Below the pieces are notes generated by a model. It did not search any database and was not told the DNA's origin. It saw only the letters and a list, made by a program, of their open reading frames with translations. From Aureimonas ureilytica DSM 18598 = NBRC 106430 (GTDB lineage Bacteria > Pseudomonadota > Alphaproteobacteria > Rhizobiales > Rhizobiaceae), in assembly GCF_000382705.1 (NCBI RefSeq), contig NZ_ARQE01000004.1, positions 156,197 to 220,196 on the forward strand: 64,000 nt of DNA, written 5' to 3'. Below, piece by piece: positions 25,370 through 39,811 of this stretch. How positions within the stretch are numbered: position 1 is the stretch's first letter; every line of letters begins with the position of its first letter. The position numbers and the translations under genes were made by a program.

Positions 25370-25576
25370 TCAGCGAATCTCCGCCTCGGCCTGAAAGCGC
25401 CCGAGAATGGCGACCACGGCGCCGACCGCCGAAGCGCCCGCCGCCAGCGCGCCGGCCAGCTGATCCTGCGCGCCGCCGTCCAGCTGATAGCCGAACAAGG
25501 CGGCGAGACTGGCGCCGAGCGCCACCAGCGCGCCCCAAACGGTCTTCGACTTCCACCATTCCTTGGTCTGATCCAT
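25370..25576 (-). CDS. Small holin-like membrane protein at the end of the GTA operon
   Basis: 68 residues from ATG 25576, with a strong AAAGGAG six bases upstream. The sequence begins MDQTKEWWKSKTVWGALVAL, then an amphipathic region and a second hydrophobic Ala/Gly-rich helix (AGALAAGASAVGAVVAILG), with a charged end. The K-x-W-W/Y-x-S-K-T-x-W-G start followed by two helices is common in tiny phage membrane proteins thought to be holins. It sits 38 bases after the large GTA tail gene on the same strand, so it may take part in release of GTA particles. No endolysin lies next to it. Confidence 0.7.
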   Translation of the reverse strand: MDQTKEWWKSKTVWGALVALGASLAALFGYQLDGGAQDQLAGALAAGASAVGAVVAILGRFQAEAEIR

Positions 25577-25614
25577 GGGTCTCTCCTTTGTGAAGCGAGC
25601 GAGGGGGAAAAGCG

Positions 25615-28600
25615 TCAGGCGGGCAGCGTCAGGCCCAGCCGGGCGGGCGCACCCACCCCGACGCTGGCGCTCATCTGCACGACCGAAACAGTCAAACGCC
25701 GCCCGCCATCCGCCAGAAGCGGACGCCAGAGCGAGGCCTCCACATCGAGGCGCGGCGTGCTTGCAAGGAGGTCGAGCGAGGCTCCGGCCGCCGACCGGAG
25801 CGTGACGCGATAGGTCTCGTTCTCCTCCCAAAGCGGCGGGTCCGCTTCGTCCCAGCCATCCAGCACCGCGCGGCTGCGCCGCCGCCAGGTGAGATGCAGC
25901 GTGCCGTCATCGCCGACGCGGCCCGCGAGATGCGCGGGCGAAAGCGGACGCAGCGCACGGCGCCCGAGCGCCGCCGCCTGCCGATCCGCCGCGGCATCGT
26001 CGAGCCCGCGCCCGGCCGGCACGGCCAGCCATTGCCGCTCCGCGCCAAGGCCCGCGACGGTTTCGGGCACGGACAGGCAGGCCGCGTCCAGAAGCACGAA
26101 GGCCGCGCCCGCCGGATGGCCCTCACCCATCGCGTCGCCCGTGCCGCCGAGCGCGCGCACCAGCCGCCCCAGCCGGAAGCGTCCGGGCGCGACCTCCTCC
26201 GCATCGCGAAACTGCAGGACCTCCCACGCCCCGCTGGGGGCACGGACCGCCGCGCGATTGGCGCCCGCGAGCAGCGCCGCGTCGGTCACCGAGGACAGAG
26301 CGCCCCAGGCGAGATCGACCTCCAGGCGGTTGGCGCGGTCGATCACCCCTTCCCGCCCCGGCGCGAGCGGCTGGCGCAGGAAGCCGAGCGTCGCCGGCCG
26401 CGTCACCCGCCCGAAGCTCTGGAACCCTGTGCCGGTCGGCGAAGCGAGAAGGTCCAGCGGCACGAAGGGCCGCGCGGCGGCCGCCACCACGGCGCCGCCC
26501 CCGCCCCCGCCATCTAGGGTCGGCAGGTCCATCCAGAACACGACCGGCCGCGACGCCTGAACCGGCAGCGCGGGCGCGGGCGGCGCTGCCGATGCGGGCG
26601 AGGCGACCCGCGAGGCCGCCCGGCGCACCCGGCGCGCCTCCACCCGGCGCGTCGCCCCATCCTCGATCCGCTCGATCCGCCAGACGCCGGCCTCGCCCGC
26701 CACCCGGACGCAATCGCCCGGCGAAAGCGCAAGCTCGCTCGGTGAAACGGCAAAGCTTGCCGTCTCCCGCTCGCCGGTCTCGCGGTCGAGAAGCTCGGCG
26801 GCGAAGCGCCGTGCCTGCCCTTCCGCGAGGATCACCGGCAGTTCGACGCTGGTCTGCCGGGGCCGATCCGCCTCACCGAGCGCGGCGTCCGCGACGCCCG
26901 TCTGATAGGCGCGCGCCGGATCGCTGAAGCCGACCAGCACCTCCTCCACCCGGTCCACCGGCTCGCTGCGGCGAATCTCGAAACGCGGCGCCTCGTCGGC
27001 ATCCGCGAGCGCGTCCAGCAGGATGGGGTCGCCGCGCCGGGCGAGCGAGCGGAAGCAGAGCCTGCCGCCTTCCGTGCGCACCTCGGTTCCCGTGAGCCGC
27101 AGGAGGTCTTCGAGTTCGGCGCGCGCCGAGCCCGGTCCCGAAACGAGGAAGCCGCCGAGATCGGCGTCGACCTCGTCGACCCGCCCGGCCTCGAAACCAT
27201 GATCGGCGAGCAGCCGCGCGACCAGCGCGTCCAGCGGCGCGCGCCCGAGCCGCCCGGTCAGCCAATGCCCGCGCTCCCAGTTCGCGCCGTCGGCCCAGAC
27301 ATCCGCGCGGTCGGGAAAGGCCGGGGCGGGCCGCGCGTCCCAGCACCAGAGATGGATCGCCTCCGGCGGCACCATCCGCCCGCCATAGAGGGGCGAGACC
27401 GGATTGTCAGCCTCGCGAAAATGCGGCGATGCGGGGTCCCAATGCCGCAGATGCGCTTCCAGAAAGCGCCGCTGCGCCAGATCGTCCCGCTCGCCCGTCG
27501 AGAAATAGGGCCAGTGGCTTTCGGAGGATTTGGGGTCGAAGAAGACATTGGGCTGGTTGGCGCCCTTGTCGATCGCCGGGCAGCCGAGTTCGGTGAGCCA
27601 GATCGGCTTGGAGCGGGGCACCCAGTCGGTCGGCTCAGCGCGTTCCACCCCGCCGCGCCGCTCGACATGCGGGTTCTCCCACCAGCTCTTCAGATCCTTC
27701 GGCCGGAAGGTCCAGGCCTTGCCGAGCCCGTCCGTGATGGGCGCGCGCGCGCCTGTGCGCCGCGCCGCCTCATCAGGATAATACCAGTCGAAATATTCGC
27801 CCGAGGAGAGGCCGGCCCGCAGGGCGTCGCGATCATAGGGCGAGGCCATCTCCCCCGCCTCCCCCTCGTCGCGCCAGTCGGCGAGCGGCAGGTAATTGTC
27901 GATCCCGACCGCGCCGATATCGGGCGAGGCCCAGAGCGGATCGAGATGGAAGAAGACGTCGCCCGAACCGTCGGCCGGATGATAGCCGAAATACTCGCTC
28001 CAATCGGCGGCATAGGTGACGAGCGCCCCGGGCAGGAGCGCCTTCACGTCCCGCGCCAGCGCCACCAGCGCGTCCACGAAGGGGAAGCGCCCCGTCTCGT
28101 CGCGCAGAACCGTCAGCCCGCGCATTTCCGAGCCGATCACGAAGGCATCAACCCCGCCGGACAGCTTGGCGAGATGCGCGGCATGAAGGATCATGCGGCG
28201 ATAGGACCATTCAGTCGCGCCAGCATAGACGACCGCTCCGTTCTCGATGCGAAAGTCGGCGAGCGTGGCGGAGCCGACGAAGCGGGCGATGTGGGCCCGT
28301 GCCTCGTCCGTCCGGTCGGCCGACCCGGCGCGTCCCGGCACTACATCCAAGGTCATGCGCCCGCGCCAGGGATAGGGCGCCTGTTCCGCGCCGCCATGGG
28401 GGTCGGGCAAGCCGTTGCCGGCGGGCACGTCCATCATCAGGAACGGGTAGAAGGTCACGCCGAGCCCGCGCGCACGCAGCGCCGCGATGGCCCGCAGGAC
28501 GCCCGCGTCGGACGGCGTGCCGCCATAGGCCGGCGCCCCGTCGATCCGGCTGACGAGATGAGCCTCGTCCCGCCCGACATCGCCCGCGCGCCAGGGGATG

Positions 28601-29493
28601 GTCTCGTCGCGGGTTCGCACTTCGATGCCCGGCCGAACGCTCGCTCGGCCGACGCGCAGGTCGTCCGCGAACCAGCTCACCACGAGCGCCGCGCGCTCCA
28701 GACGCGGGCAGAGCGCCGTCAGTTCCTCCAGCGACGCGTCGAAATCGCTCGCGCCATGCAGCATGTTGCGGTTGAGCAGCCGGTCCTCGCCCGGCCCGAC
28801 GCGCTCGCGCACCACGCTCGGGTCGAGCCCGTGTTCCGTCGCGCCGGGAATGATCGTGACCGCCCGAAGCCCCGCTTCCAGTTCGCCGACGGGCCGGATC
28901 ACCTCGCAGCTGATCCGGGGAATGCGGTTGCCCCAGCGCTCCAGCGGCAAATGCTCGAACACGAGATAGGCGAGCCCGCGATAGGCCGGCGCGTTGCCCC
29001 GCCCCTGCCGCGCCTCGATCAGCGGGTCGGGCTCTTGGCTCTCGCCGCCCTTGTGCAACCGAACGGTGACGAGCGACAGGTCAAGCTCCTCGCCATCGGC
29101 CCAGATGCGGCGAACATGGGCGATCGGCCCCTCGCACAAGCCGATCGCGACATGGCCGAAATAGCTGTAGCTCGTCGTCTCGCCGCCGCCGCGCGTGCCC
29201 TTGCCGCCCGAGCGCTCCGTGGTCGCGACTTCCTCGAAGCGCGTCGTCCAGATCACCTGACCGGCGATCCGCGCCGTGCCGTAAAGGCGCGCGACGCCGC
29301 CCCCCTCGTCCGCTTCCATGATGCGGCGGCCGGCGAGACGCGGCCCTTCGCGCTTCGCCTTGCCCCCGAACAGGGTGTTGTCGACGAGCGAGCCGCCGAG
29401 CGCGCCGAGCGCCCGCCCCGCCATCATGCCGAACGGGCCGCCGACGAGCCCGCCGAGCGCCCCGCCCGCCGCCTGAAGAAGGATCGTCGCCAT
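25615..29493 (-). CDS. GTA g15-like large tail-tip protein with glycoside hydrolase-like TIM barrel
   Basis: 1292 residues, the expected size of RcGTA g15. The start is a glycine-rich membrane-like stretch (LLQAAGGALGGLVGGPFGMM). A central region (about 430-740) has TIM-barrel features such as FVIGSEMRGLTVLRDETG, TYAADWSEYFGYHP, GIDNYLPLADWRDE and PIWLTELGCPAIDKGANQPN. The rest is a phage tail (Phage-tail_3-like) domain. In RcGTA this protein forms the megatron at the tail tip, contacting the recipient envelope and channelling DNA. It starts three bases after the peptidase gene stop. The frame is intact over 3.9 kb. Confidence 0.95.
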   Translation of the reverse strand: MATILLQAAGGALGGLVGGPFGMMAGRALGALGGSLVDNTLFGGKAKREGPRLAGRRIMEADEGGGVARLYGTARIAGQVIWTTRFEEVATTERSGGKGTRGGGETTSYSYFGHVAIGLCEGPIAHVRRIWADGEELDLSLVTVRLHKGGESQEPDPLIEARQGRGNAPAYRGLAYLVFEHLPLERWGNRIPRISCEVIRPVGELEAGLRAVTIIPGATEHGLDPSVVRERVGPGEDRLLNRNMLHGASDFDASLEELTALCPRLERAALVVSWFADDLRVGRASVRPGIEVRTRDETIPWRAGDVGRDEAHLVSRIDGAPAYGGTPSDAGVLRAIAALRARGLGVTFYPFLMMDVPAGNGLPDPHGGAEQAPYPWRGRMTLDVVPGRAGSADRTDEARAHIARFVGSATLADFRIENGAVVYAGATEWSYRRMILHAAHLAKLSGGVDAFVIGSEMRGLTVLRDETGRFPFVDALVALARDVKALLPGALVTYAADWSEYFGYHPADGSGDVFFHLDPLWASPDIGAVGIDNYLPLADWRDEGEAGEMASPYDRDALRAGLSSGEYFDWYYPDEAARRTGARAPITDGLGKAWTFRPKDLKSWWENPHVERRGGVERAEPTDWVPRSKPIWLTELGCPAIDKGANQPNVFFDPKSSESHWPYFSTGERDDLAQRRFLEAHLRHWDPASPHFREADNPVSPLYGGRMVPPEAIHLWCWDARPAPAFPDRADVWADGANWERGHWLTGRLGRAPLDALVARLLADHGFEAGRVDEVDADLGGFLVSGPGSARAELEDLLRLTGTEVRTEGGRLCFRSLARRGDPILLDALADADEAPRFEIRRSEPVDRVEEVLVGFSDPARAYQTGVADAALGEADRPRQTSVELPVILAEGQARRFAAELLDRETGERETASFAVSPSELALSPGDCVRVAGEAGVWRIERIEDGATRRVEARRVRRAASRVASPASAAPPAPALPVQASRPVVFWMDLPTLDGGGGGGAVVAAAARPFVPLDLLASPTGTGFQSFGRVTRPATLGFLRQPLAPGREGVIDRANRLEVDLAWGALSSVTDAALLAGANRAAVRAPSGAWEVLQFRDAEEVAPGRFRLGRLVRALGGTGDAMGEGHPAGAAFVLLDAACLSVPETVAGLGAERQWLAVPAGRGLDDAAADRQAAALGRRALRPLSPAHLAGRVGDDGTLHLTWRRRSRAVLDGWDEADPPLWEENETYRVTLRSAAGASLDLLASTPRLDVEASLWRPLLADGGRRLTVSVVQMSASVGVGAPARLGLTLPA

Positions 29494-29496
29494 GGG

Positions 29497-29934
29497 TCAG
29501 CTCCGGTCGATGAATTGAAAACAGCCGGCGATGCGCCGCGCCCAGCCGGGCGTCAGCAGCGAGGAGACGACCGCCGCGCCCTCATAGGCGTGGATCAGCC
29601 GCAGCCTTTCGCCTTCGGCCTCGTCGAGAAGGCCGCAATGCTTGGCCGGCCGCCCCTCGCGCCAGCGAAACAGGACGAGATCGCCCGGCCGCGCGTCTCC
29701 TCGCTCGACTTCGCGAAACAGGCGCCGCGCGGCCTCCAGCATCGGATCGCCCTCGCCCGTCTCGGCCCAGTCGGCGCTGTAGGGGCCGGGGTGCTCGGGC
29801 TCCGTGCCATAGACCTCCCGCCAGACGCCGCGAACGAGGCCGAGGCAGTCGCAGCCGACGCCCGCCCGGCTTCCCTGGTGGCGATAGGGCGTGCCGAGAA
29901 AGCCGCGCGCCGCCCGAAGCACACGCCCGCGCAT
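29497..29934 (-). CDS. GTA g14-like NlpC/P60 cell-wall peptidase
   Basis: 145 residues from ATG 29934, overlapping the g13 stop in ATGA. NlpC/P60 catalytic residues are visible: C30 in GCDCLGLVRGVW, H99 in AKHCGLLD and a further polar residue near H115. It is expected to cut peptidoglycan of the recipient during GTA attachment. An open frame extends far upstream but is a shadow of g13. Confidence 0.92.
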   Translation of the reverse strand: MRGRVLRAARGFLGTPYRHQGSRAGVGCDCLGLVRGVWREVYGTEPEHPGPYSADWAETGEGDPMLEAARRLFREVERGDARPGDLVLFRWREGRPAKHCGLLDEAEGERLRLIHAYEGAAVVSSLLTPGWARRIAGCFQFIDRS

Positions 29935-30821
29935 CAGGGCACCACCGGCGAGCCGTCGTGCCGCCCGTCGCTCTTGGCGACCCCGAGCGCCGCGTCGGCA
30001 CCCGGCAGATGCGGAAAGCCGCGAAAGTTCACGCCGTTGCCGAACCGGTCCCGGCAGGTCGAAAAGGCGCGGTCGCAGCCCGCCACGAGCGCGACCCGCT
30101 CGCCCACGGTCGGCAGGCGCGCGGGCGGCCGATGCGGAAAGAGCCTGACCGCACCCGGCGCCGCTCCCTCGACGAGGCCCCGCAGCGGCACCGGCTCCGC
30201 GCCCTCGCCGAGCATCAACCGCCCTTGCGCGAACAAGCCTTCCTCGTCCCGCGAGAAGGCCAGCACCGGGCGCACGGTGATCTCGTCGTCCGCCGCGTCG
30301 AGGACCTCCGCAGACCGCGTCCAGCGCGCCAGATCGACCTTGCATCTGGCATCGCCGAGGACGGCGTCGCAGCGGCGGCGGTAGGTGCGCCCGCGCGGCC
30401 GGTCGAGCCGGGCGGCGAGCCCGCGCAGCTCGGCGCGAAAGCTGCCCGCCCCCCGCGTCACCTCGCCGAGATCGGCGACCTCCATCAGGACGTGGTGGCC
30501 CGGCTCGCGCCAATCGACGCGAAAGCTCTCGATGCTGGCGCCGTCGAACAGGCCGCGCTCCACGTCGCTCTCGCGGATCGCCTCGTCGCTGAAGCCGCCA
30601 TCCACCGCCTCGGTGCCGGCGCCGAGCCCCCGCGCCGCCTCGCCCTCGCCGGCGGTCCAGCCGGTGCGGGCGCGAAACAGCGTCCCGGCAAAGCGCAGGT
30701 CCTCGTCATGGTCGGTGAAGCCGAAGACCACGCCGTCGCGCCGCGTCAGCCGCCAGGCGCTCGCCAGCGTCGTCGCCGGCTGGTTCAGTCTCTCCCGAAA
30801 CGCGGCGGACAGGGTCTTCAT
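29934..30821 (-). CDS. GTA g13-like baseplate protein (DUF2163)
   Basis: 295 residues. The start MKTLSAAFRERLNQPATTLA and the segments WRLTRRDGVVFGFTDHDEDL and TYRRRCDAVLGDARCKVDL are those of DUF2163 / phage baseplate hub proteins. The C-terminal part contains CDRAFSTCRDRFGNGVNFRG, with cysteines that in RcGTA g13 belong to an iron-sulfur-binding module. It overlaps g12 and g14 by four bases each, so the three are translationally coupled. Confidence 0.93.
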   Translation of the reverse strand: MKTLSAAFRERLNQPATTLASAWRLTRRDGVVFGFTDHDEDLRFAGTLFRARTGWTAGEGEAARGLGAGTEAVDGGFSDEAIRESDVERGLFDGASIESFRVDWREPGHHVLMEVADLGEVTRGAGSFRAELRGLAARLDRPRGRTYRRRCDAVLGDARCKVDLARWTRSAEVLDAADDEITVRPVLAFSRDEEGLFAQGRLMLGEGAEPVPLRGLVEGAAPGAVRLFPHRPPARLPTVGERVALVAGCDRAFSTCRDRFGNGVNFRGFPHLPGADAALGVAKSDGRHDGSPVVP

Positions 30822-31444
30822 GGCCGGATCTCCACGAGCGGAATGGTCGGGATGTCGCCGGCTTCGAAGGCGGCGACGTTGAGCGCGAGATGGTCGATGT
30901 CGAAGCGCACCGGCACGTCGAACTCGAAGCCGGCGGTGATCCGGCTGCCCGGCGGCGGCGGGCTGGCGAAGGTGACGAGACCGCTTGTCGCCTCGACGCT
31001 GGCATTCGCCGCCACACCGTCCACGGCAAGGCGCACCGTGCCGGAGACCGGCTTGCGGATCGGCCTGACATAGGCGTCCTCGCCCGCGCCGTAGCGCTTC
31101 GCGAGCTGGAAGCTCCGCGTCTCGCCGTCGCCCGTGCCGAGCAACTGATCGAGCGCCGTCGCCGCCTGTCCCCAGCGCGCCGAGGCGGCGTCGAACGGGT
31201 CGCGGAAGCGGAAGCCGACGAGCCGCCCGCGCCGCGCCTCGAAGAAGTCGAGGACGCGGATCAGGTCGGCGAGGCTCTTGACGCCCGAGCCGGCATCGTA
31301 GCGCCGCCAGGAATGGCGCGTGCGCTGGTTGCGGTTCTCGTAGCCGGTGGACAGGCGCACGATGTCGGTGCGCCGCTCCGGCCCGCCCGACGTGCCGAAG
31401 GCGACCGAAAGCGGAAACCGCTCCTCGCTGAAGGAGGCCACCAT
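30818..31444 (-). CDS. GTA g12-like distal tail protein (DUF2460)
   Basis: 208 residues. EERFPLSVAFGTSGGPERRT near the N-terminus and DLIRVLDFFEARRGRLVGFR, FRDPFDA in the middle are typical of DUF2460 tail proteins, which form the distal tail ring that joins tube to baseplate. Start ATG 31444 lies one base from the upstream stop. It overlaps g13 by four bases. Confidence 0.93.
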   Translation of the reverse strand: MVASFSEERFPLSVAFGTSGGPERRTDIVRLSTGYENRNQRTRHSWRRYDAGSGVKSLADLIRVLDFFEARRGRLVGFRFRDPFDAASARWGQAATALDQLLGTGDGETRSFQLAKRYGAGEDAYVRPIRKPVSGTVRLAVDGVAANASVEATSGLVTFASPPPPGSRITAGFEFDVPVRFDIDHLALNVAAFEAGDIPTIPLVEIRP

Positions 31445-31445: not shown

Positions 31446-32033
31446 TCAGAGCCCCCTTTGGCCGCGCAGCGCGGCGCGCGCGAGCATGGCCTGGATCTGC
31501 GTTTCGGCGCGGCGGAAGCTCGGCGCGTCCGGCGTCGAGACGTTGAAGGTGACGTTCGCGCCGCCGCGCCGCCCGCCCTCCACGGCGACGCCGAGCGAGC
31601 CGTCCGCCCCGCGCTTCAGGGGCATGATCGCCTCCGCCCCCGCCTCGCCCATCAGGCCGACCTGACCGCCCGCAGGAAAGAAGCTCGGCGCGCGCACGAC
31701 GCCCCCCTTGGCGAAGGGAACGACGCTCGGCCCCGGTTGGGCACTTGCCCCCGGCGCGCCGCCGCCAAGGCCTGACAGGAGCGAGCCGACCGCCCCGCCC
31801 GCGAGTTGGGAGAGCGGCTTCAAGGCCGCGTCGAGCGCGATCGCCGACAAGCGGCTGCCGAGGCCGCGCAAGACGGTGTCGAGCGAGCGCCCGCCGCCGA
31901 CCGCGCCTTTCAGCGCCGCGCTCATCGCCGCGCCGAACCGGTCGGCGCGCGAGGACAGGTCGGAAAGGGCACGCTCGAAGCCGCTGGTATCGGCCTCCAC
32001 GGCAATGCGCATCGTGTCCACGGACGGGTCCAT
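31446..32033 (-). CDS. GTA g11-like tail tape measure protein
   Basis: 195 residues, short like RcGTA g11 (~219), implying a short tail. The start MDPSVDTMRIAVEADTSGFE and the C-terminal FAKGGVV, VGLMGEAGAEAIMPLKRG are tape-measure hallmarks. The centre is Gly/Ala/Leu-rich and helical. It sets tail length and is ejected with DNA. The stop is one base from g12. Confidence 0.9.
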   Translation of the reverse strand: MDPSVDTMRIAVEADTSGFERALSDLSSRADRFGAAMSAALKGAVGGGRSLDTVLRGLGSRLSAIALDAALKPLSQLAGGAVGSLLSGLGGGAPGASAQPGPSVVPFAKGGVVRAPSFFPAGGQVGLMGEAGAEAIMPLKRGADGSLGVAVEGGRRGGANVTFNVSTPDAPSFRRAETQIQAMLARAALRGQRGL

Positions 32034-32034: not shown

Positions 32035-32262
32035 TCACCTCCGGTCGGGATAGAGTTGCAGAAGGGCGTCGAGCCGCTCGCGGGTCGGCGCGGCCGAGCG
32101 CCGGCCCAAGGGGCGAGCCAGCGCCGCCAGCTCGCGCGGGCTCAAGGCCCAGAAGTCGCGGGGGGACAGGCGAAACGTGCCGAAGCAGAGCGCCATCGCC
32201 TCGTCCCAGGGAAAGGCCGCCGCGCCGCCCGGCTCGCTCGGGTCCGGCGCGGCGGCGCTCAA
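32035..32262 (-). CDS. GTA g10.1-like tail assembly chaperone, TTG start overlapping g10 stop
   Basis: 75 residues if started at TTG 32262, which shares bases with the g10 stop as TTGA. The core FPWDEAMALCFGTFRLSPRD then FWALSPRELAAL is characteristic of small tail assembly chaperone proteins (DUF2376 type) found next to g10 in GTAs. There is no ATG in frame before this motif, so a coupled TTG start is the simplest reading. The gene is shorter than most automated callers accept. Confidence 0.82.
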   Translation of the reverse strand: MSAAAPDPSEPGGAAAFPWDEAMALCFGTFRLSPRDFWALSPRELAALARPLGRRSAAPTRERLDALLQLYPDRR

Positions 32263-32594
32263 GGGCGGGCGGTGGCGGCCTCCTCCACGCCGAAGGCCGC
32301 TTCCAGAAGCGCGGTCGCGAGCGCCGCCGCGCCTGCCGCGCCCCGCTCGAAGCGCATGGCGGCGACCTCCTCGTCGCTCACCGCCTCGCCGGCGCCGCGC
32401 AGGCCCGCGCCGATGACGCGCACGAGATCGCGCGCAGCGAGGCGTCCCGAGCCGAAGCGCGCGGCGAGCGCCGAGATGTCGTCGAGCGCGAAAGCCTCCT
32501 CCAGTTCGGCCAGCGCGCCGAGCGTCAGGCACAGGCGCCGCTCGCGCCCGTCGATGGTGGCGGCCACCTCGCCGCGTCGTCGGTTCGCCGCCAT
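32259..32594 (-). CDS. GTA g10-like tail assembly protein
   Basis: 111 residues. VAATIDGRERRLCLTLGALA followed by ELEEAFALDDISALAARF is the conserved core of GTA gp10 family proteins, thought to chaperone tail tube or tape measure assembly. It overlaps the g9 stop by ATGA and the following gene by TTGA. The C-terminus is Ala-rich. Confidence 0.9.
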   Translation of the reverse strand: MAANRRRGEVAATIDGRERRLCLTLGALAELEEAFALDDISALAARFGSGRLAARDLVRVIGAGLRGAGEAVSDEEVAAMRFERGAAGAAALATALLEAAFGVEEAATARP

Positions 32595-33007
32595 CAGATC
32601 GCCTCGAAGCTGAGCGCGCCGGCCGATTCCAGCGTCAGCTCGAAGGCGATCTCGCCATTGTGCTCGCCGGAATATTCGAGCGCCGTCACCTGGAACGGGC
32701 CGCTCACGCGTCCGAAATCCGGGATCACCGCCTGAAACGGCGCGATGCGCCCTTCGAAGAACAGCTGGCGCACCGCCATGTCGGAAGCCGCGTCCTTGAA
32801 GATGCCCGCGCCCGACAGGGCGGCGCGCTGCACGCCGGCCCCGCCCAGAAGCTCGCGCCAGCGTCCGGCGCTGTCGCTGTCGGTCACGTCCACCGTCTCG
32901 GCATTGAACGAGATGCGGCGCGAGCGAAGCCCCGCCACGGTCTGGAATGTCCCATCATTCTCCGCGTCGAGCTTGAGGAGAAAGTCCTTGCCCTTTTGCG
33001 CGCCCAT
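32594..33007 (-). CDS. GTA g9-like major tail tube protein
   Basis: 137 residues: MGAQKGKDFLLKLDAENDGT, TVAGLRSRRISFNAETVDVT and DSDSAGRWRELLGGAGVQ are typical of TP901-1-like major tail proteins. It polymerises into the tail tube around the tape measure protein. It starts 27 bases after a strong terminator-like hairpin (33034-33057) separating it from g8, and overlaps g10 by four bases. Confidence 0.95.
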   Translation of the reverse strand: MGAQKGKDFLLKLDAENDGTFQTVAGLRSRRISFNAETVDVTDSDSAGRWRELLGGAGVQRAALSGAGIFKDAASDMAVRQLFFEGRIAPFQAVIPDFGRVSGPFQVTALEYSGEHNGEIAFELTLESAGALSFEAI

Positions 33008-33033: not shown

Positions 33034-33057
33034 AAGGGCGGCCCGAGGGCCGCCCTT
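33034..33057 (-). terminator. Strong intrinsic terminator-like hairpin inside the GTA operon, between g8 and g9
   Basis: On the minus strand AAGGGCGGCC pairs with GGCCGCCCTT around a small loop, followed by TTTTTCGTTT. It begins 27 bases after the g8 stop and leaves only 26 bases before the g9 start, too little for a separate promoter. Partial termination or 3'-end protection is therefore likely. Confidence 0.75.
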
Positions 33058-33083: not shown

Positions 33084-33497
33084 CTACGACGCCAGCGGCT
33101 CCGTCACCGCGCGAAAGCGCAGGATGCCGTGATAGGCGGGCGAGTCCGGCGCCTGCCGCGCCTCGGCGAACTGAAGCCGCAGGTTCACCAGCCGATGGGT
33201 TTCCAGCGGCAAGGTCGCGTCGTTCAGCCGCTCGGCGATCTTGTCCATGATCTCGTAGGTTTCCTGCTTCGAGCCGCCCTTGGCCCAGACATGCAGGGTG
33301 AGAATATGCTCCGCGCCGTCTTCCGTGCCGGTGGACCAGTCGATGACCGCCGTGCGGCCGAGCGTCAGATAGGGAAAGCTCGCGCGCTCGGGCACATGGT
33401 CGAAGATCTTCGGCCCGCCCAGGAGCTTGGTCAGGCCCGCGTCGGCCGTCAGCGCGCCAACGATCGTCGTCTGCAATTCCGCTGAAGGATGCGACAT
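33084..33497 (-). CDS. GTA g8-like tail terminator protein (DUF3168)
   Basis: 137 residues from ATG 33497 (MSHPSAELQTTIVGALTADA); a GTG ten codons upstream is possible but lacks support. FDHVPERASFPYLTLGRTAV, LTLHVWAKGGSKQETYEIMD and RLQFAEARQAPDSPAYHGIL are DUF3168 features. Such proteins cap the tail tube at the head side. Its stop is followed by a strong hairpin. Confidence 0.93.
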   Translation of the reverse strand: MSHPSAELQTTIVGALTADAGLTKLLGGPKIFDHVPERASFPYLTLGRTAVIDWSTGTEDGAEHILTLHVWAKGGSKQETYEIMDKIAERLNDATLPLETHRLVNLRLQFAEARQAPDSPAYHGILRFRAVTEPLAS

Positions 33498-33558: not shown

Positions 33559-33738
33559 CTAACCGCGCCATTGCGGATTCATTAAAATTGAGTGAGGTTC
33601 GCCCGCCGATGGCCGCGCATCGCGGGACACGGCCGCCTCCCGCTCGTCCATCTGCCGTTCCACCTCGCGCCGGACCCGCTCGCGCAGCGCGCGGCGCAGC
33701 GCCTCGACCGGCAGGCGGAAGGCCCCAAGCGCGATCAC
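33559..33738 (-). CDS. Small protein between g7 and g8, GTG start coupled to the g7 stop (unrecognised)
   Basis: 59 residues. GTG at 33738 overlaps the g7 stop as GTGA, and GAGGAGGAG within the end of g7 ends two bases before it. The protein reads MIALGAFRLPVEALRRALRE then a charged helix RVRREVERQMDEREAAV, and ends SILMNPQWRG. The helical, strongly charged centre could form a coiled coil. It fills an otherwise unexplained 240-base gap in a tightly packed operon. I do not recognise a family, and RcGTA has no named gene at this position. Function unknown; a head-tail joining or assembly role is only a guess. Confidence 0.5.
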   Translation of the reverse strand: MIALGAFRLPVEALRRALRERVRREVERQMDEREAAVSRDARPSAGEPHSILMNPQWRG

Positions 33739-34067
33739 GTCTCCTCCTCGCACCGGCAGACGAGCCAGCGCCCCGTCTCGTCCGGGTCGTGAAGGCTGCG
33801 GATCAGAAGTCGCCGCGCCCCCAGCCGAAACGCCATGCCGCGCGACAGGCCGTCGCGCGCCCGCAAGGTGACGCGATGCGTCAGCACGCCGATGCGCTGG
33901 CCGAGTTCCTCCTCCACCTTGCCGGTCAGCGGCTCGACGCGCACCGAGGTTTCGCCGACCTCCAGCCAGCGCTCCCGCGCGCCGCCCATCGCGTCCGGCA
34001 GGGGCTCGTTGCGCTCGATCAGCGCCCGCTTGGTCAGGAGGCCGGGGTCCAGAAACACGGGCACCAT
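33735..34067 (-). CDS. GTA g7-like head-tail adaptor
   Basis: 110 residues: MVPVFLDPGLLTKRALIERN, RWLEVGETSVRVEPLTGKV and RSLHDPDETGRWLVCRCEE match the phage head closure/adaptor family. It forms a ring between connector and tail. It starts one base from the g6 stop and overlaps the following 59-codon frame through GTGA. Confidence 0.9.
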   Translation of the reverse strand: MVPVFLDPGLLTKRALIERNEPLPDAMGGARERWLEVGETSVRVEPLTGKVEEELGQRIGVLTHRVTLRARDGLSRGMAFRLGARRLLIRSLHDPDETGRWLVCRCEEET

Positions 34068-34068: not shown

Positions 34069-34629
34069 TCAGAGCCTCGGCGTGCGAAACGGCGCGATCA
34101 GCGCGCGGGCGAGCGGTGGCATGAAGGCCGGCTGCAGCGCGAGGGAAACCGCGCCGCGTGTCTCGAAGGCCGCGCCCGCCAGCCTGACGATCGCGAGCTT
34201 CAGCGCTTCGGGCACGTCGTCCGGCGCCTCTCCTGCCCGCAATTCCAGCTCGACGCCGTTCGACGCTCGGGCGGCGAGCCCCGCCGGCAGATGCAGCCAC
34301 GCGCCGAAGGGCTGGGGATCGAGCCGGAAGCTCGCGGGCTCCAGCGGCACCGCCGCGCCCACCTCGTCATAGCCGATCGCCTCGGCGACATCCCGCAAGG
34401 GCCGACGATGCAGCGCCAACCGGTCCCGCGCGGGGTCCGCCTCGAAGGACAGGCGCAGGCGGCGCTCGGTCAGGACGAGGCCGGTCTGCGCTTCCACCGC
34501 CTCGCGCGCGGCACTGATGCAGCGCGCGACGATCGCGTCCTCGTCGTCCCGCTCCAGCCGCAGAAAGCGCTTCACCTCGCCGAGCGACACCGGCTCCTCG
34601 CCGCTCTTGTCCCATTCGATCCAGATCAT
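34069..34629 (-). CDS. GTA g6-like head-tail connector protein
   Basis: 186 residues. PVSLGEVKRFLRLERDDEDA followed by IVARCISAAREAVEAQTGLV is the signature of gp6-like head-tail connectors (DNA packaging adaptor ring below the portal). The gene begins 31 bases after a terminator-like hairpin that separates it from the capsid gene. Confidence 0.93.
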   Translation of the reverse strand: MIWIEWDKSGEEPVSLGEVKRFLRLERDDEDAIVARCISAAREAVEAQTGLVLTERRLRLSFEADPARDRLALHRRPLRDVAEAIGYDEVGAAVPLEPASFRLDPQPFGAWLHLPAGLAARASNGVELELRAGEAPDDVPEALKLAIVRLAGAAFETRGAVSLALQPAFMPPLARALIAPFRTPRL

Positions 34630-34659
34630 GTCCGCTCGCCTTCCCCTCGAAACAAAGAA

Positions 34660-34681
34660 GGCCGGGCGTCGCCGCCCGGCC
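34660..34681 (-). terminator. Terminator-like hairpin inside the GTA operon, after the capsid gene
   Basis: On the minus strand GGCCGGGCG pairs with CGCCCGGCC (9 bp, loop GCGA), followed by TTCTTTGTTTC. It lies 23 bases after the g5 stop and 30 bases before the g6 start. There is no space for a new promoter. Confidence 0.7.
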
Positions 34682-34704
34682 CGGTTGCTCCTCGCGCGTT
34701 TCGA

Positions 34705-35955
34705 TCAGGCGGCGAACCTGAGGTATTTCGCGGCGTCGAAATCCTGGATGCCGCCGCCGACGCGCTTCGTCGTGTAGAAGAGGACGTAGGGCTTGGCGGA
34801 ATACGGATCGCGCAAGACCCGCACGCCCTGCCGGTCCACCACGAGGTAGAAGCGCGAGAAGTCGCCGAAGGCGATGGCGCTCGCGCCGTTCGCGATGTCC
34901 GGCATGGCTTCCGCCTCCACCACCGCGAAGCCCATGAGGCTCGCCTTGGCGCCGGCCGCCGCCGGCGGCTGCCAGAGATAGTTGCCCTCCGCGTCCTTCA
35001 GCTTGCGCACCGCGCTCTGCGTGCGCCGGTTCATCACGAAGGCGGCGTTCTGCCGGTAGCCGGCCTTCAGCGCATAGACGAGGTCGATCAGCGCGTCGGA
35101 CCCGCCCGAGGCCGCGAAGCCGCCGTTCACGCCGGTCGAGACCGTGCCGACCTTGCCCCAGGCCCATTGCGCCTCGGGCACCGTGTCATAGGCCATGAAG
35201 CCCTTGGGCTTGGCGACGCCGTCGCCCGTCACGAAGGCGACGCCTTCCTGCGCGGCGAAGGCCTGTTCCACCTCCTCGCCGATCCAGGCGTCGATATCCA
35301 CGGCCGCGTCGTCGAGCAGCGAATTGGTCGCCGCCGGCATGGCGTAGAGTTCCATGGTCGGGAACACGAGCTCGCCGAGCTGCGGCTGCGCCGTCTGGGG
35401 CCGCGCGTCGGTTTCGCCGACCCAGCCCGTCTGCGCACCGCTGAGCGCGAAGGGCTTCTTCAGAACGGCGGAGGACACGGTGCGCAGCCCGCTGATGGCG
35501 CGGATCGGCGAGACATTGGCGAGGCGTCGGCCGATCTCGGCCTCGGTTTCGGGCGGCACGAGGAAGCCGCCGTCCGCCCCGACCAGCCCCGACATCGCCT
35601 TTTCCTCGAGCCGGCGCATCCGCCCCTCGTCGCCGGCCCGCACATAGGCCTCGAAGGCCGAGCGGTGCTCGCTCGGCAGGTTCGGCGCGCCCTCGCCGCC
35701 GCCGACCGGCGGGCGCAGATTGCGCAGGACGAGGCGTTCCATGCGCTTTTCGTGCTCGTCCATCGCCTTGGACAGGCGGTCGACCTTCTCGTCCGTCACC
35801 GGATCGGCGCTCATGCGCCGCTCGATCTGGTCGAGGCGCTCGTCGTTCGCCTCGCGAAAGGCCTCGAAGGCGCGCATCAGCTCGTCCAGCGCGTCCGGCC
35901 CTTCCGCGCCGGCACCGGCCTTGGTCTCGATCGCGCCGCTCGTCATCGTCTGCAT
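34705..35955 (-). CDS. GTA g5-like major capsid protein (HK97 fold)
   Basis: 416 residues from ATG 35955, with GAAGGAG five bases upstream. The N-terminal ~110 residues form a charged coiled-coil scaffold region (LDQIERRMSADPVTDEKVDR) that is expected to be cut off by the prohead protease. The mature domain has LEEKAMSGLVGADGGFLVPP, FPTMELYAMPAATNSLLDDA, EEVEQAFAAQEGVAFVTGDG and the HK97 end KPYVLFYTTKRVGG. It builds the particle shell. The start overlaps the protease gene by 13 bases. Confidence 0.96.
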   Translation of the reverse strand: MQTMTSGAIETKAGAGAEGPDALDELMRAFEAFREANDERLDQIERRMSADPVTDEKVDRLSKAMDEHEKRMERLVLRNLRPPVGGGEGAPNLPSEHRSAFEAYVRAGDEGRMRRLEEKAMSGLVGADGGFLVPPETEAEIGRRLANVSPIRAISGLRTVSSAVLKKPFALSGAQTGWVGETDARPQTAQPQLGELVFPTMELYAMPAATNSLLDDAAVDIDAWIGEEVEQAFAAQEGVAFVTGDGVAKPKGFMAYDTVPEAQWAWGKVGTVSTGVNGGFAASGGSDALIDLVYALKAGYRQNAAFVMNRRTQSAVRKLKDAEGNYLWQPPAAAGAKASLMGFAVVEAEAMPDIANGASAIAFGDFSRFYLVVDRQGVRVLRDPYSAKPYVLFYTTKRVGGGIQDFDAAKYLRFAA

Positions 35956-36494
35956 GGGATCTCCTTCGGGGAGTTGGAACAGGTGGCCTCCGCGATCCGC
36001 CGGGCGGCGCTCGCGAAACGGGACAAGAGATCGCCGCGCGCTTCGCGCACCCGCGCCGCTTCCTGCATGGGGAAGGTCACGATGGAGATCTCCAGAAGGT
36101 CGATATCGAGAAGCAGCCGCCGGGCTGCGCCGCGCAGCGGCCGGCTGGCCCGCGTGCGAAAGCCGATGGAGAGGCCGTCCAGCGCCTGCGCGCGCAGGAG
36201 CGCGAAGGCCTCGCGCCCTTGCGCCGTGTCGAGCGCGAGCCGCCCCTCGGCCAGAAGCCCGCGCTCGTCCTCGACGAGGCGCGTCCACACGCCGATCGGC
36301 CGCGAGGGGTCGTGCTGCCAGAGCATCCGCACGCCCGCCGCGCCGCGCTCGCGCAAGGCCCGTGCGAAGGCGCCTGGCCGGATGCGGTCGCCCGAGAGAT
36401 CGGTGCGGTCGAAAAGGCTCGCATAGCCCGACACGAAGCCCGCCGGCGGCTCGCGCGCGCCGGGGGCGCGACCGACTGCGGGAACGCTCCTCAT
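35943..36494 (-). CDS. GTA g4-like prohead protease
   Basis: 183 residues from ATG 36494, overlapping the g3.5 stop by ATGA. HK97-type serine protease features are visible: SGYASLFDRTDLSGDRIRPG, the His in LWQHDPSRPIG, the Ser in ALDGLSIGFR and the strand DLLEISIVTFPM. It matures the capsid scaffold. The C-terminus overlaps the capsid start. Confidence 0.93.
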   Translation of the reverse strand: MRSVPAVGRAPGAREPPAGFVSGYASLFDRTDLSGDRIRPGAFARALRERGAAGVRMLWQHDPSRPIGVWTRLVEDERGLLAEGRLALDTAQGREAFALLRAQALDGLSIGFRTRASRPLRGAARRLLLDIDLLEISIVTFPMQEAARVREARGDLLSRFASAARRIAEATCSNSPKEIPCRR

Positions 36495-36838
36495 GCGCCG
36501 CCTCCGCGCCGCCCGGCCGCCAGCGCCAGCCCGTCGGCGAAGCGCTGGAGCACGCCGAGCGCCCACCAGGCGCAGAGGCTGGCGCTGGCCGAGCCGATCA
36601 GTGCCAGCTCCGCCGCGCCGATCCGCTCCGTGAAGCCGAGCTGGTCGCCGAGCGCCAGGCCGGACGGCCCGCCGAAGACGAGGCCCGTCACAGCTCCGGC
36701 CAGAAAGCGCACCGCCGCCTCGCGCCGGCCGGCCGGCAGGAGATAGGCGATCGAGATCACCGATCCGCCGACCGCGCCGGCGAGTTTCGCGCCCCAGAGC
36801 GCGAGCGGCGAAACGACCTCGCCCGTGATCGTGTCCAT
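36491..36838 (-). CDS. GTA g3.5-like small membrane protein
   Basis: 115 residues with about three hydrophobic segments (LALWGAKLAGAVGGSVISIA, VRFLAGAVTGLVFGG, ALIGSASASLCAWWALGVLQ) and a positively charged C-terminus. It occupies the place of g3.5 between portal and protease and overlaps the protease start. Proteins here in rhizobial GTAs are uncharacterised. A membrane-attached role in assembly is inference. Confidence 0.8.
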   Translation of the reverse strand: MDTITGEVVSPLALWGAKLAGAVGGSVISIAYLLPAGRREAAVRFLAGAVTGLVFGGPSGLALGDQLGFTERIGAAELALIGSASASLCAWWALGVLQRFADGLALAAGRRGGGA

Positions 36839-36856
36839 GGCAGAACTCCCCTTGTG

Positions 36857-38059
36857 TCAGGTTCCGCGCCGGCGCGGCCCGTAGCCGACCGCCTCGCGCT
36901 TTTCGTCCTCGTCGAGGAAGCTCGCGGCCCCGAGCCGCGCCCAGAGTGCCTCGCGCTCGGCCGAGAGCCCCTCGATCCGGTCGGCGTCGAAGCCGAGCCG
37001 CAAGCGCCGGCCGGGTTCGAACCCCTCGGCCAGCCAGTCGCCGAGCGCGCCGAGAAGCCGCGCCAGAAGCGGCAGGACGGTGAGCCGGTAGAGCGCCCGG
37101 TTCGCCTCGGCGAGGTTGGCGTAGGTGGCGTCGCCGGGAATGCCGAGCAGCATGGGCGGCACGCCGAAGGCGGTGGCGATGTCGCGCGCCGCTCCGTTGC
37201 GCGCCTCGATGAAATCCATGTCGCGCGGGCTCAGCGCCATGGACTTCCAGTCCAACCCGCCCTCCAGGAGCATCGGACGCCCGGCCCGCGCCGCGCCCGC
37301 ATAGCCGCTTTCGAGTTCCGCCTTCAGCCGGTCGAACTGGTCGGCCGAGAGATTGCCGCCGTCGCCGGCCTGATAGACGAGGGCGCCGGAAGGCCGGGCC
37401 GAGTTGTCGAGAAGCGCCTTGTTCCAGCGCGTCGCCGCATTGTGCAGGTCGAGCGCGGTCTGCGCGGCTTGAAGCGGCGCGAACCCCTCGCCCTCGCCGA
37501 GCGGATGAAACAAGCGGATCGCCAGAACCGGCGCCATGCCCTCGTCGGCTTCGAGAGGCAGTCGTCGCACCGCCGAGCCCGCGCGATATTCCACCGCCTG
37601 CGGCCAGCCGTCGGCGGCGCAGATCACCCGAACCCGGTCCGGCCGCAGCGCGTGAAGCTGGCGCGGCTGGCCGCCGAGCGACACCGCTTCCACATGGGCC
37701 GTGCCCGAAAGGAGAAGATAGCCGCAAAGCCCTTCCAGAAAGCCCGGCCCGTCCTGTGCCGGGTTCGGCCGGCGCAGAAGGTCGAGGATCGGATGCGTCT
37801 CGACCTCCCGATTGCCTTCGTAGAGAAGCGGCGGCACGGCGCTCGCGGTTTCGGCGATCAGCCGCACGCAGCGGTAGACGACCGGGTTCTGCTGGAAGCC
37901 GGCCCGCGACAGCGCTGGGTAGGAGCGCTCGCTCCAGAAGGCCGCGTCCGGCGAGCCGCCCCCGAAGACGAGCGATCCGCCCGTGGATTTGCGTTCGGGC
38001 ACGCGCGCGCCCTCGCCGCCGAGGCGCGCGAGCGCCCGCAGCCGTGAAGCCAGTCCCAT
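36857..38059 (-). CDS. GTA g3-like portal protein (HK97 type)
   Basis: 400 residues. FQQNPVVYRCVRLIAETASA then VPPLLYEGN, LLRRPNPAQDGPGFLEGLCG, NAATRWNKALLDNSARPSGA and ARDIATAFGVPPMLLGIPGD are standard portal motifs. The portal forms the ring through which DNA enters the head. Start ATG 38059 has CGGAGA upstream. A 76-base gap to TerL contains a weak hairpin (38088-38109). Confidence 0.96.
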   Translation of the reverse strand: MGLASRLRALARLGGEGARVPERKSTGGSLVFGGGSPDAAFWSERSYPALSRAGFQQNPVVYRCVRLIAETASAVPPLLYEGNREVETHPILDLLRRPNPAQDGPGFLEGLCGYLLLSGTAHVEAVSLGGQPRQLHALRPDRVRVICAADGWPQAVEYRAGSAVRRLPLEADEGMAPVLAIRLFHPLGEGEGFAPLQAAQTALDLHNAATRWNKALLDNSARPSGALVYQAGDGGNLSADQFDRLKAELESGYAGAARAGRPMLLEGGLDWKSMALSPRDMDFIEARNGAARDIATAFGVPPMLLGIPGDATYANLAEANRALYRLTVLPLLARLLGALGDWLAEGFEPGRRLRLGFDADRIEGLSAEREALWARLGAASFLDEDEKREAVGYGPRRRGT

Positions 38060-38087
38060 GGATGTCTCCGATCGTGTGAAGGTGAAA

Positions 38088-38109
38088 ACCCGCTTGGCCG
38101 CGCGCGGGT
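38088..38109 (-). terminator. Weak terminator-like hairpin between TerL and portal genes
   Basis: On the minus strand ACCCGC and GCGGGT (6 bp, 10-base loop) are followed by TTTCACCTT. It is weaker than the two other intra-operon hairpins and could be chance. Confidence 0.3.
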
Positions 38110-38135
38110 CGGCGCTCAGGCGGAGGAGCAGACTC

Positions 38136-39440
38136 TCAGAGCGAGCGGATGCGCGGGGCGGCCTGCGCCTGCGTCAGCGCGGTCACGGCCCAGACGAGCG
38201 CGTCCAGCCGGTCGGGCGAACGCCCGTTCGACAGGCCGTCCGGCCCGAAGTCGCACATCTCGTCTTCCAGCTCGGCGAAGCTGCCAGCATGGCGCACGCG
38301 CCCTTGCTCGTAGAGCGTCGCGACCGGCTCGGCGCGCAGCCACTTGCCGCGCGTCGCCCGCACGGTGGAGACGGGCAGATGCGGCGCGACCGTGCGGATC
38401 ACGGTTTCCACCATGTCGCCGCCCTGGTTCACCTCGGCGACGATCCGGTCGGCCTCGACCTCCGAAAACAGCGCCACGGCCCGCGCCGCCCAGTCCACCG
38501 GCTTCAGGCCGCGCCGGCTGCGATCGGCCAGCACATAGACGATCCCGTCCTCGCCCATCCCGGCGGCGACGAGCCCGCAGGCGTCGGAGCGCTGCGTGGC
38601 CGTGGCCGGCGGGTCCACCGCCACCACGACGCGCCGCAAGGGCGGCGCGGCGCGCACCCGGCTGCGGTCGATCGCGGCGCGCGAAAACAGCGCGTCCTCG
38701 CGCCCGTCCACCAGTTCGCCGTCGAGTTCCTGCCGCCCGAGCCGCGAGCCGCCATAGCGCGCCTCCATCGCCGCGAGGAAACCCGGCGCGAGATGCGCCG
38801 CGTTTTCCCGCGTTCGCATATGCGTCACGCGCGTTCCGGGCTCGGCCATCAGGCGTTTCAGAAGCGGCACGGCGCGCGGCGTCGTGGTCAGCGCCATGCG
38901 CGGGCTCGTGCCCAGCCGCAGCGCCAGTTGCAGATTGTCGAAACAGGCATCGGCATGGGTCCATTTGGCGAGTTCGTCGCCCCAGGCCGCGTCGAACTGG
39001 TAGCCGCGCAGGGCGTCCGGGTCCTCCGAAGAGAAGATTTGCGCCACCGCCCCGTTGGCGAAGACGAGCCGCCGCCGCGTCGCTTCGAAGACGGGCCGCG
39101 TTTCGTAGTGAAGCGCGCGCAACCCGCTCTCGCCCTCGATCATCACTTCGCGCGCGTCGCCGAGCGTTTCCGCGACAAGCGCGATGCGCCCGTGAACCCG
39201 GCCCGCCAGCGGCGCGCGGCCGAGCGCCAGCGCCCGCACCCATTCCGCCCCGGCCCGCGTCTTGCCCGACCCGCGCCCGCCGATCAGAAGCCATTGCCGC
39301 CAGTCGCCCTCGGGGGGCAGCTGCGCGGGGCGCGCGCATTGCGCCCAGTCCGGCATGGCGCGCAGGAGAACCCGTTTCGGCTGCCGGCCGATCTCCGCCT
39401 CCACCTCGCGCCAGAAACCCGCCTCGCCCGCCTCGCTCAA
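38136..39440 (-). CDS. GTA g2-like terminase large subunit, TTG start
   Basis: 434 residues. The ATPase has Walker A GGRGSGKT (54-61) and Walker B-like FDAAWGDELAKW. The nuclease half has VVVAVDPPATATQRSDACG, VAEVNQGGDMVETVIR and NGRSPDRLDALVWA, with acidic residues expected at the RNase H-like site. It powers headful packaging of host DNA. The start TTG 39440 overlaps the g1 stop as TTGA. No ATG exists before the conserved region. A longer open frame on the same strand is a shadow with Arg-rich translation. Confidence 0.95.
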   Translation of the reverse strand: MSEAGEAGFWREVEAEIGRQPKRVLLRAMPDWAQCARPAQLPPEGDWRQWLLIGGRGSGKTRAGAEWVRALALGRAPLAGRVHGRIALVAETLGDAREVMIEGESGLRALHYETRPVFEATRRRLVFANGAVAQIFSSEDPDALRGYQFDAAWGDELAKWTHADACFDNLQLALRLGTSPRMALTTTPRAVPLLKRLMAEPGTRVTHMRTRENAAHLAPGFLAAMEARYGGSRLGRQELDGELVDGREDALFSRAAIDRSRVRAAPPLRRVVVAVDPPATATQRSDACGLVAAGMGEDGIVYVLADRSRRGLKPVDWAARAVALFSEVEADRIVAEVNQGGDMVETVIRTVAPHLPVSTVRATRGKWLRAEPVATLYEQGRVRHAGSFAELEDEMCDFGPDGLSNGRSPDRLDALVWAVTALTQAQAAPRIRSL

Positions 39441-39811
39441 GCGCCGGGCTCCGGCGAGGCCGCGTCCCCAAACAAGCCCCCGCCACCCGGCCGCCGCGCG
39501 TCCAGGGCGCGCAACCGCTTCAGCATCTCGTCCCGCAGCCGCTCGGTTTCGGCGTCATCGCCGTCCTCGGCGGCGCGGTGGCCGAGCGCCTCGATCTCCC
39601 GCAGTTCCAGAAGCTTTTCCAGGCTGCGCGTTAGATGGCCGATCGCCTCGATCCGCGCCTTCGCGTCCACCCCTCGCGCCGCCGCGCCGCCCTCCTCCTC
39701 GCTCGACCGTCCGCGCGCCGGGCGGCCCTTTTCGAGGCGCGCCAGTTCCTGCGTCAGGGCGCGCAGAAGCCGGTCCGAAAGCAGCGTCTTGGGTCGCGCC
39801 CGCTTCGCCAT
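39437..39811 (-). CDS. GTA g1-like terminase small subunit
   Basis: 124 residues from ATG 39811, with GGGGGA six bases upstream. MAKRARPKTLLSDRLLRALT, then helical AIGHLTRSLEKLLELREIEA and a Gly/Pro-rich tail. It occupies the g1 position directly before TerL; g1 of RcGTA has been identified as TerS. The charged helices fit oligomerisation. It is the first gene of the GTA operon and lies behind a hairpin-containing leader. Confidence 0.82.
   Translation of the reverse strand: MAKRARPKTLLSDRLLRALTQELARLEKGRPARGRSSEEEGGAAARGVDAKARIEAIGHLTRSLEKLLELREIEALGHRAAEDGDDAETERLRDEMLKRLRALDARRPGGGGLFGDAASPEPGA

Follow-up and report, generated by a model that had tools for sequence, protein, structure and literature searches.

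An RcGTA-like gene transfer agent locus in Aureimonas ureilytica and a possible in-place exchange of its particle genes in sister species

Does a cluster of phage-type structural genes in the chromosome of Aureimonas ureilytica DSM 18598 encode a gene transfer agent (GTA) that is kept in working order, or is it what remains of a slowly decaying prophage? The cluster lies within a stretch of 64,000 nucleotides of contig NZ_ARQE01000004.1 (the window, to which all unlabelled coordinates refer), where it occupies minus-strand positions 39811 to 25370. A preliminary description of this stretch had reported 17 open minus-strand frames corresponding to genes g1-g15 of RcGTA, the GTA of Rhodobacter capsulatus, and had preferred a functional GTA to a decaying prophage. 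Comparison with related genomes gives us high confidence that the window holds an intact alphaproteobacterial type I (RcGTA-like) GTA locus of an Aureimonas-like host, and suggests that this locus is probably functional and specifies a working particle. The reported order and openness of the frames stand, but the span contains 18 genes, the last (25370-25576) being separate and holin-like. The numbering and order of the RcGTA genes (g1-g15 with g3.5 and g10.1) follow what we take to be the arrangement in that system. All 18 frames are open:

39437..39811, minus strand: g1, small-terminase position (by position and conservation)
38136..39440, minus strand: g2, large terminase, start TTG (PF03237/PF17289, Terminase_6N/6C)
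36857..38059, minus strand: g3, portal (PF04860, Phage_portal)
36491..36838, minus strand: g3.5, DUF6107 (PF19602)
35943..36494, minus strand: g4, prohead protease (PF04586, Peptidase_S78)
34705..35955, minus strand: g5, major capsid (PF05065, Phage_capsid; RcGTA capsid 6TB9/6TBA)
34069..34629, minus strand: g6, head-tail connector (gp6 connector, PF05135)
33735..34067, minus strand: g7, head completion (PF05521)
33084..33497, minus strand: g8, tail terminator/completion (tail completion gp17, PF11367)
32594..33007, minus strand: g9, tail tube (PF06199)
32259..32594, minus strand: g10, tail assembly chaperone (GTA-gp10 TAC, PF11836)
32035..32262, minus strand: g10.1, tail assembly chaperone, start TTG (PF09550, TAC)
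31446..32033, minus strand: g11, short tape measure of 195 aa (tape-measure families in PHROGs)
30818..31444, minus strand: g12, distal tail (DUF2460)
29934..30821, minus strand: g13, baseplate hub (PF09931/PF09356)
29497..29934, minus strand: g14, tail peptidase (NlpC/P60)
25615..29493, minus strand: g15, megatron tail protein (GTA_TIM, Rcc01698_C)
25370..25576, minus strand: eighteenth gene, holin-like (phrog_34682, E 7.8e-10; dN/dS 0.10-0.14)

A Pfam family could be assigned to 15 of the 17 RcGTA-type genes, the exceptions being g1 and g11; g1 matched no family in Pfam or PHROGs. In g15 Pfam matched GTA_TIM (E 2e-133), together with Rcc01698_C, and the g5 capsid matched the RcGTA capsid structures 6TB9/6TBA (Rcc01687) at E 7e-93. 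The best 80 capsid-bearing loci form the set of capsid relatives used here; where the genome is a named one, the top matches to g5 are those of Aureimonas (A. ureilytica at 90 percent) and further Aurantimonadaceae. The genes found kept the same order in 80 of 80 of these loci, and this excludes chance as the origin of the cluster; all 15 genes tested (g2-g15 without g3.5) were present in 64.

Type I GTAs have been defined (PMC9662315) by Caudoviricete-derived proteins, an endogenized genome often spread over several loci, co-diversification with the host, packaging of mostly random host DNA in a head too small for the GTA genome, and delivery of that DNA, and the screen used there asks for six or more RcGTA homologues in one place, g2 and g5 among them. 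The structural proteins of the window cluster are Caudoviricete-derived, and the locus is endogenized in three places within the window (the cluster, a gafYZ activator pair and a DUF2793 fibre gene) between host genes, with a two-component pair on one side of the cluster and genes for a CxxCxxCC (YkgJ-type) protein and, by eye, a penicillin-binding protein (pbp) on the other. At least six RcGTA homologues including g2 and g5 lie together, homology to RcGTA being direct for the capsid only and established through families for the rest. The integrase expected beside a temperate prophage was not seen: no tyrosine integrase (PF00589) occurs on the whole contig (C4) and 14 occur elsewhere in the genome, serine recombinases not having been searched.

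All siphovirus structural classes are present in the cluster, which would suit an active or recently active, self-replicating temperate phage, but we regard this as very improbable: the gene calls for the cluster and its immediate neighbourhood showed no replication, integrase or repressor genes, as the preliminary description had noted, the gene order is the same in relatives, the cluster tree is host-like (see below), and the tape measure has 195 aa, against 716 aa (by eye) in a prophage-like cluster of congener G010. The latter, a second g15-type cluster in that genome (45 percent; L121/L122, G010:C1:2.764-2.800 Mb), is a prophage-like relative of the GTA and carries a DUF2793 gene directly after its g15.

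For the GTA reading, the comparison of dN/dS across related genomes that had been proposed in the preliminary description gave values (NG86) of 0.046-0.42 against G013 and 0.11-0.42 against G020, the two nearest congeners, for all 18 genes (dS 0.36-1.16), with 0.02-0.13 for the host control genes pbp, 24263 and ykgJ. By these ratios many structural genes are less constrained than the host controls, yet clearly under purifying selection; the cluster genes with stronger constraint include terminase, portal and capsid (0.09-0.17), and higher single-gene values occur in other pairs (g1 0.74 and g6 0.55 in G014-G011; g10.1 0.53 in G016-G007). When a tree of g2, g3, g5 and g15 was compared with a host tree of pbp and ykgJ for 21 loci, 11 of 18 splits were common and 10 of the 12 host splits with support of at least 0.95 were recovered in the cluster tree, label shuffles (n=500) having a mean of 0.4 splits in common and a maximum of 4. 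This test is somewhat weakened because both host markers adjoin the cluster, so that linkage could help; judged by it, the cluster co-diversifies with its host by vertical inheritance. G012, with a broken cluster, was omitted from the tree comparison and from the terminator scan described below, and G015 (cluster at a contig end) and G019 (fragmented) from the selection, promoter and tree analyses.

The activator pair and the fibre gene were missed by the preliminary description, although both lie in the window:

51131..51529, minus strand: gafY-type activator, DnaA C-terminal domain (PF08299)
50640..51134, minus strand: gafZ-type activator/antiterminator, DUF6456 (PF20057)
50211..50639, plus strand: sufE, neighbour of gafZ (translation read by eye)
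61826..62677, minus strand: tail-fibre gene (DUF2793), 22 kb upstream of the cluster

The two activator genes overlap, are intact (50640-51529) and lie 11 kb upstream of the cluster. In Hyphomicrobiales a split gafA has been described as a DnaA-like gene, the gafA C-terminal part and then sufE (PMC9638019), and DUF2793 has been named as a tail fibre of the RcGTA particle (PMC10883770). The DUF6456 gene was found in 21 of 21 congeners and g15 in 16; DUF2793 was found in 17, namely in all 16 with g15 and, as a partial match, in one of the five without it (Fisher p 0.0008, to be read with the fact that the five genomes without g15 are one clade and hence close to one event). The distance between gafZ and g15 is 18-22 kb in 13 of 16 genomes, those with both on one contig. 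A tRNA-Arg placed by ARAGORN inside gafZ (50879-50951) we take to be a chance match; none of seven other gafZ-holding loci has it.

A dedicated promoter upstream of the cluster, claimed in the preliminary description, was borne out by comparison with relatives, in which a shared block was first recognised 3' of the ykgJ stop; a generic sigma-70 scan did not find it. The control elements are as follows:

39889..39931, minus strand: cluster promoter, shared with relatives
39917-39929, minus strand: upstream element GGAAAATAGTCCT, part of the cluster promoter
39912-39917, minus strand: -35 box TTGACT of the cluster promoter
39889-39894, minus strand: -10 box TAGGTT of the cluster promoter
39828..39862, minus strand: leader hairpin followed by a T-rich tail (intrinsic terminator, by folding), between promoter and g1
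34659..34682, minus strand: terminator-like hairpin between g5 and g6 (terminator scan)
33034..33057, minus strand: strong terminator between g8 and g9 (terminator scan)
51583..51595, minus strand: 13-base element upstream of gafY, AGAAAATAATCCT, the same element as at the cluster promoter

The promoter pattern TTGAC..CGT.ACGG.{5,9}TAG, with at most two substitutions, is present in all 14 RcGTA-type congener loci whose sequence extends past g1 on the upstream side (a count without G015, whose stretch is too short, and G019) and in 5 of 5 loci in which the cluster has been replaced. Of the 80 capsid-bearing loci, 68 have enough sequence, and 64 of these show the pattern no more than 2.5 kb upstream of g2; of the remaining loci seven were too short and five had no g2 match. 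Some of the 80 come from genomes that are also among the G-numbered congeners. Shuffling in two-base blocks gave 112 matches in 44.4 million bases, or about 11 expected for the whole set. An alignment of 24 loci (of 25 picked stretches, L010 being left out) has 19 invariant columns; the loci were picked by the pattern with one substitution allowed and a loose filter on the following bases, and the invariance is partly by construction because 13 of the 19 columns are letters of the picking pattern, those independent of it including A18, A60, T73 and G74. The 17-base spacer between -35 and -10 holds an imperfect palindrome, a candidate GafZ site. A pattern built from the two sites after seeing them, [AG]GAAAATAnTC[CA]T, matches the 64 kb exactly twice, once in the cluster promoter and once ahead of gafY. 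The element occurs upstream of gafY in four of five loci examined, the window included, and not in G010, and in the 24-locus alignment it is present in 12 of 14 RcGTA-type congener promoters, the exceptions being G010 and G012; it is a candidate site for a common regulator.

The leader hairpin, part of a 59-base stretch that folds at -28.3 kcal/mol (z -3.63), was not listed by the terminator scan, which wants perfect stems. The g8-g9 terminator is kept in 12 of 13 RcGTA-type loci scanned, with G010 as the exception, and the same scan gave no g5-g6 hairpin in 12 other RcGTA-type loci. The g8-g9 terminator divides the operon into a head and connector half and a tail half.

The GafZ protein of Caulobacter binds to a palindrome located between the -35 and -10 boxes and enables the polymerase to read past terminators (PMC11150451). 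The layout of promoter and terminators in the window resembles this, and by analogy we infer a comparable action of GafZ here. Starvation would lead GafY (DnaA-like) and GafZ (DUF6456) to switch the cluster promoter on, GafZ loading at the palindrome and carrying RNA polymerase past the leader terminator and the g8-g9 terminator; g2 and g3 would fill g5 capsids with fragments of host DNA, the capsids would be joined to tails built on the short tape measure, and cell lysis would release the particles.

This organisation is like that of RcGTA (Rhodogtaviriformidae) in its GTA_TIM, GTA-gp10 and Rcc01698_C families, its capsid (6TB9/6TBA) and presumably its gene order. In R. capsulatus the fibre is encoded at a dispersed locus; in the window, unlike RcGTA, the activator is split into two genes only 11 kb from the cluster, the fibre gene is 22 kb away, a holin-like gene directly follows g15 and a leader terminator precedes g1. 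The DUF2793 fibre is again a shared feature (PMC10883770). With CcGTA of Caulobacter crescentus the window has in common the two-gene activator GafY/GafZ, a palindrome between -35 and -10, and terminators that would require antitermination (PMC11150451), but the -35 and palindrome sequences differ, the terminator lies ahead of the first gene rather than downstream of it (PMC11150451), and a holin-like gene is present, whereas the accessible parts of two Caulobacter studies report none found (PMC13236601, PMC9632790). The split gafA loci of Hyphomicrobiales are alike in their DnaA-like gene, gafA C-terminal part and sufE, but neither linkage to a structural cluster nor an exchanged cluster is reported in the accessible part of that work (PMC9638019).

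Several observations weigh against a conserved, working GTA. In G016, g15 carries one in-frame TAG and is otherwise open, which may reflect a real stop or a sequencing error, and G012 lacks g3.5-g12 and has 4.9 kb in their stead (L119 6162-11061) with repressor-like and Mu-type gene pieces, recognised by eye only. Both are among the 13 other RcGTA-type congener loci obtained whole; observations of the kind that the preliminary description had named as refuting its reading do occur in relatives. The system is dispensable, because five of 21 congeners lack g15. The palindrome of the window is imperfect and its sequence unlike the Caulobacter site; no endolysin gene was found, but a search for the one family tried, GH108 endolysin (PF05838), gave no match in control genomes either, which makes it uninformative. 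No clear GTA-type carbon-content signature was established in the RcGTA-type clusters, where the values for g14 and g15, unlike those for g12 and g13, fall below that of the one prophage homologue in 12 of 12 loci, nor in the replacing clusters described below. The G012 cluster was apparently broken by another phage.

The frames broken in two congeners, the absence of the whole cluster from five, and the presence in IMG/VR of closely related clusters, entered as viral sequences some 15 kb long, would fit a slowly decaying defective prophage from which no particles are made. We nevertheless consider this unlikely: 18 of 18 genes are intact with dN/dS well below 1, the cluster co-diversifies with its host, its promoter and its g8-g9 terminator are conserved, the regulators and the tail fibre are linked to it, host genes flank it on either side, and the contig has no tyrosine integrase. 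The preferred identification as a type I GTA locus thus draws on selection, co-diversification, the promoter, gafYZ and the fibre, the working particle being a prediction from sequence; the claim that such clusters are kept by selection holds for all 18 window genes but not as a general rule, in view of the breaks in G016 and G012 and of the other phage-like cluster that occupies the site in the five congeners without g15. Particles might also be made for some other use, such as killing kin or DNA release, as transfer cannot be read from sequence and the sister species retain the control region with a different capsid type. We judge this improbable too: terminase, portal and capsid have dN/dS of 0.09-0.17, a constraint to be expected were DNA packaging important.

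The five congeners without g15 (G001, G002, G003, G005 and G006) carry an unrelated, Mx8-like packaging, capsid and lysis cluster at the same site, adjoining ykgJ/pbp and behind the same core promoter in 5 of 5, with a size of about 17-19 kb in G002 (L123 9997-19901 and L124 1-6676) and G005. It starts with a small terminase-like gene (by position), the large terminase (TerL), portal, a scaffold-like gene (by position), capsid and a tail protein, and continues with a GNAT acetyltransferase, a virion structural protein, fibre-region genes, an endolysin and a holin-like gene, the last named by similarity to the holin-like gene of the window, its own PHROG being of unknown function. A lone homologue of GTA g8 stands at its end in 4 of 4 readable loci, the G001 contig ending before the lysis genes and g8 and having one readable flank only. 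On the far side of the cluster the two-component genes are found again in G002, G003 and G006; in G005 some 6.6 kb of other genes come first. A search of the five contigs for PF00589 integrases out to 138 kb, or to the contig end where that is nearer, gave none, other recombinases not having been searched.

One explanation, on which we hold the evidence to be about evenly balanced, is an in-place exchange: the particle genes would have given way to an Mx8-like podovirus-type module behind the GTA core promoter and near the retained gafYZ, kept by selection, which would constitute a second, independently exapted GTA inheriting the regulation of the first. Mx8 is here taken to be a podovirus. 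The five genomes form one clade (support 1.00) beside the RcGTA-type carriers G008 and G010 (0.88), and the RcGTA type is likely the older state, judging from the genus tree, in which the outgroups are RcGTA-type too, but these had been taken from loci found by that type of capsid. For TerL, portal and capsid of G001, G002 and G003, dN/dS is 0.007-0.114 at a host-like dS of 0.18-0.40 (pbp dS 0.28-0.39), and by this measure the replacing head genes are under strong purifying selection in these three genomes. The replacing-cluster genes of G005 have high dS, and the finding does not extend to G006, in which a large part of the cluster is deleted. In G001, G002 and G003 the genes p283, p88, p249 and p84, taken as the fibre region, have dS of 0.70-1.42, which suggests exchange by recombination. 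The cluster has Caudoviricete proteins and a fixed chromosomal site; the replacing clusters are closer to one another than to their prophage relatives, with capsids 85-100 percent identical within the clade (four of five, G006 being without the gene). Six of nine replacing genes have a carbon content below both prophage homologues (G008, G372) in G001-G003, and three of nine in G005.

That the replacing phage brought the promoter with it can be rejected, no promoter pattern being present at the ectopic relatives in G008, G020 (a distant copy) and G372. Of these relatives, that of G008 is prophage-like, with an integrase about 5 kb from its TerL, as is that of G372, with an integrase about 4 kb past its holin-like gene and repressor and replication genes seen by eye. 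Separate recent infections are unlikely to account for the replacing clusters, as, setting aside one record, 30 of the 31 capsid relatives found in the viral collection through exact peptide patterns are at most 53 percent identical over the matched part, against 85-100 percent within the clade. The capsid occurs in 15 of 394 family genomes at E 1e-20 or better, including G001, G002 and G008, and the nearest phages (the Myxococcus phages Mx8 and Mx9, the Rhizobium phage RHph_I3_18 and others) have homologous portals and capsids with about 26-32 percent identity (10 and 11 records). Unlike Mx8-type phages, the chromosomal replacing clusters consist of structural and lysis genes with the GTA core promoter and no nearby tyrosine integrase.

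Against the exchanged cluster as a working GTA stand a deletion in G006 from the end of TerL to the fibre region, which leaves a piece of the portal, the need for two substitutions in the G006 promoter match, and the placement of G005 and G006, on which the TerL tree disagrees with the host tree, although the nodes concerned have weak support. The 13-base upstream element is absent from the replaced promoters, so that regulation is not identical, and the G005 cluster has a third-position GC content (GC3) of 0.60-0.67, its surroundings also being AT-richer (region GC 0.56). As 9 of 10 related phage records are 39-54 kb long, a head of that phage size would have room for the full cluster, about 17 kb long; by analogy, an Mx8-sized head may thus carry its own cluster, which would break the GTA definition.

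In the accessible part of PMC9662315 at least three GTA clades are recognised, and 'podovir' appears only in a reference title. Judged by titles and the starts of abstracts, neither a podovirus-type GTA nor an in-place exchange was recognised among the open-licence GTA papers listed, and none was listed for Aureimonas, which is not proof of absence; the words Aureimonas and Aurantimonad do not occur in the accessible part of PMC6821227.

The cluster in the window is itself probably an ordinary type I GTA of an already known sort. In the genus, the control part (promoter core, gafYZ and site) appears from these comparisons more stable than the particle part: a host-owned switch of gafYZ, core promoter and terminator would persist while the particle behind it is exchanged. 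If this is true, what is selected is the possession of some controlled DNA-carrying particle rather than any single frozen prophage, a point that matters for the question of why bacteria keep GTAs. A stable switch with an exchangeable particle would be new, provided that the replacing particle works. The idea is open to direct test in sister species, where two unrelated particles stand under one switch. A GTA screen that relies on homology to RcGTA would overlook the replaced type, and one such cluster is catalogued as a virus record (IMGVR_UViG_2663763019_000001, with a capsid 100 percent identical).

The open frame orfx (33559-33738), which overlaps the stop of g7, was rejected as a gene, having no homologue in the 80 loci (E 1e-3) and no family, and a search for Terminase_4 (PF05119) gave no match. 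Two further HK97 capsids are encoded on other contigs of the same genome, so phage-like elements exist elsewhere in it. In IMG/VR many RcGTA-type clusters are entered as viruses, with records some 15 kb long (L192-L271, the best 80 of 598), and in two such records the capsid is 93 percent identical to that of the window.

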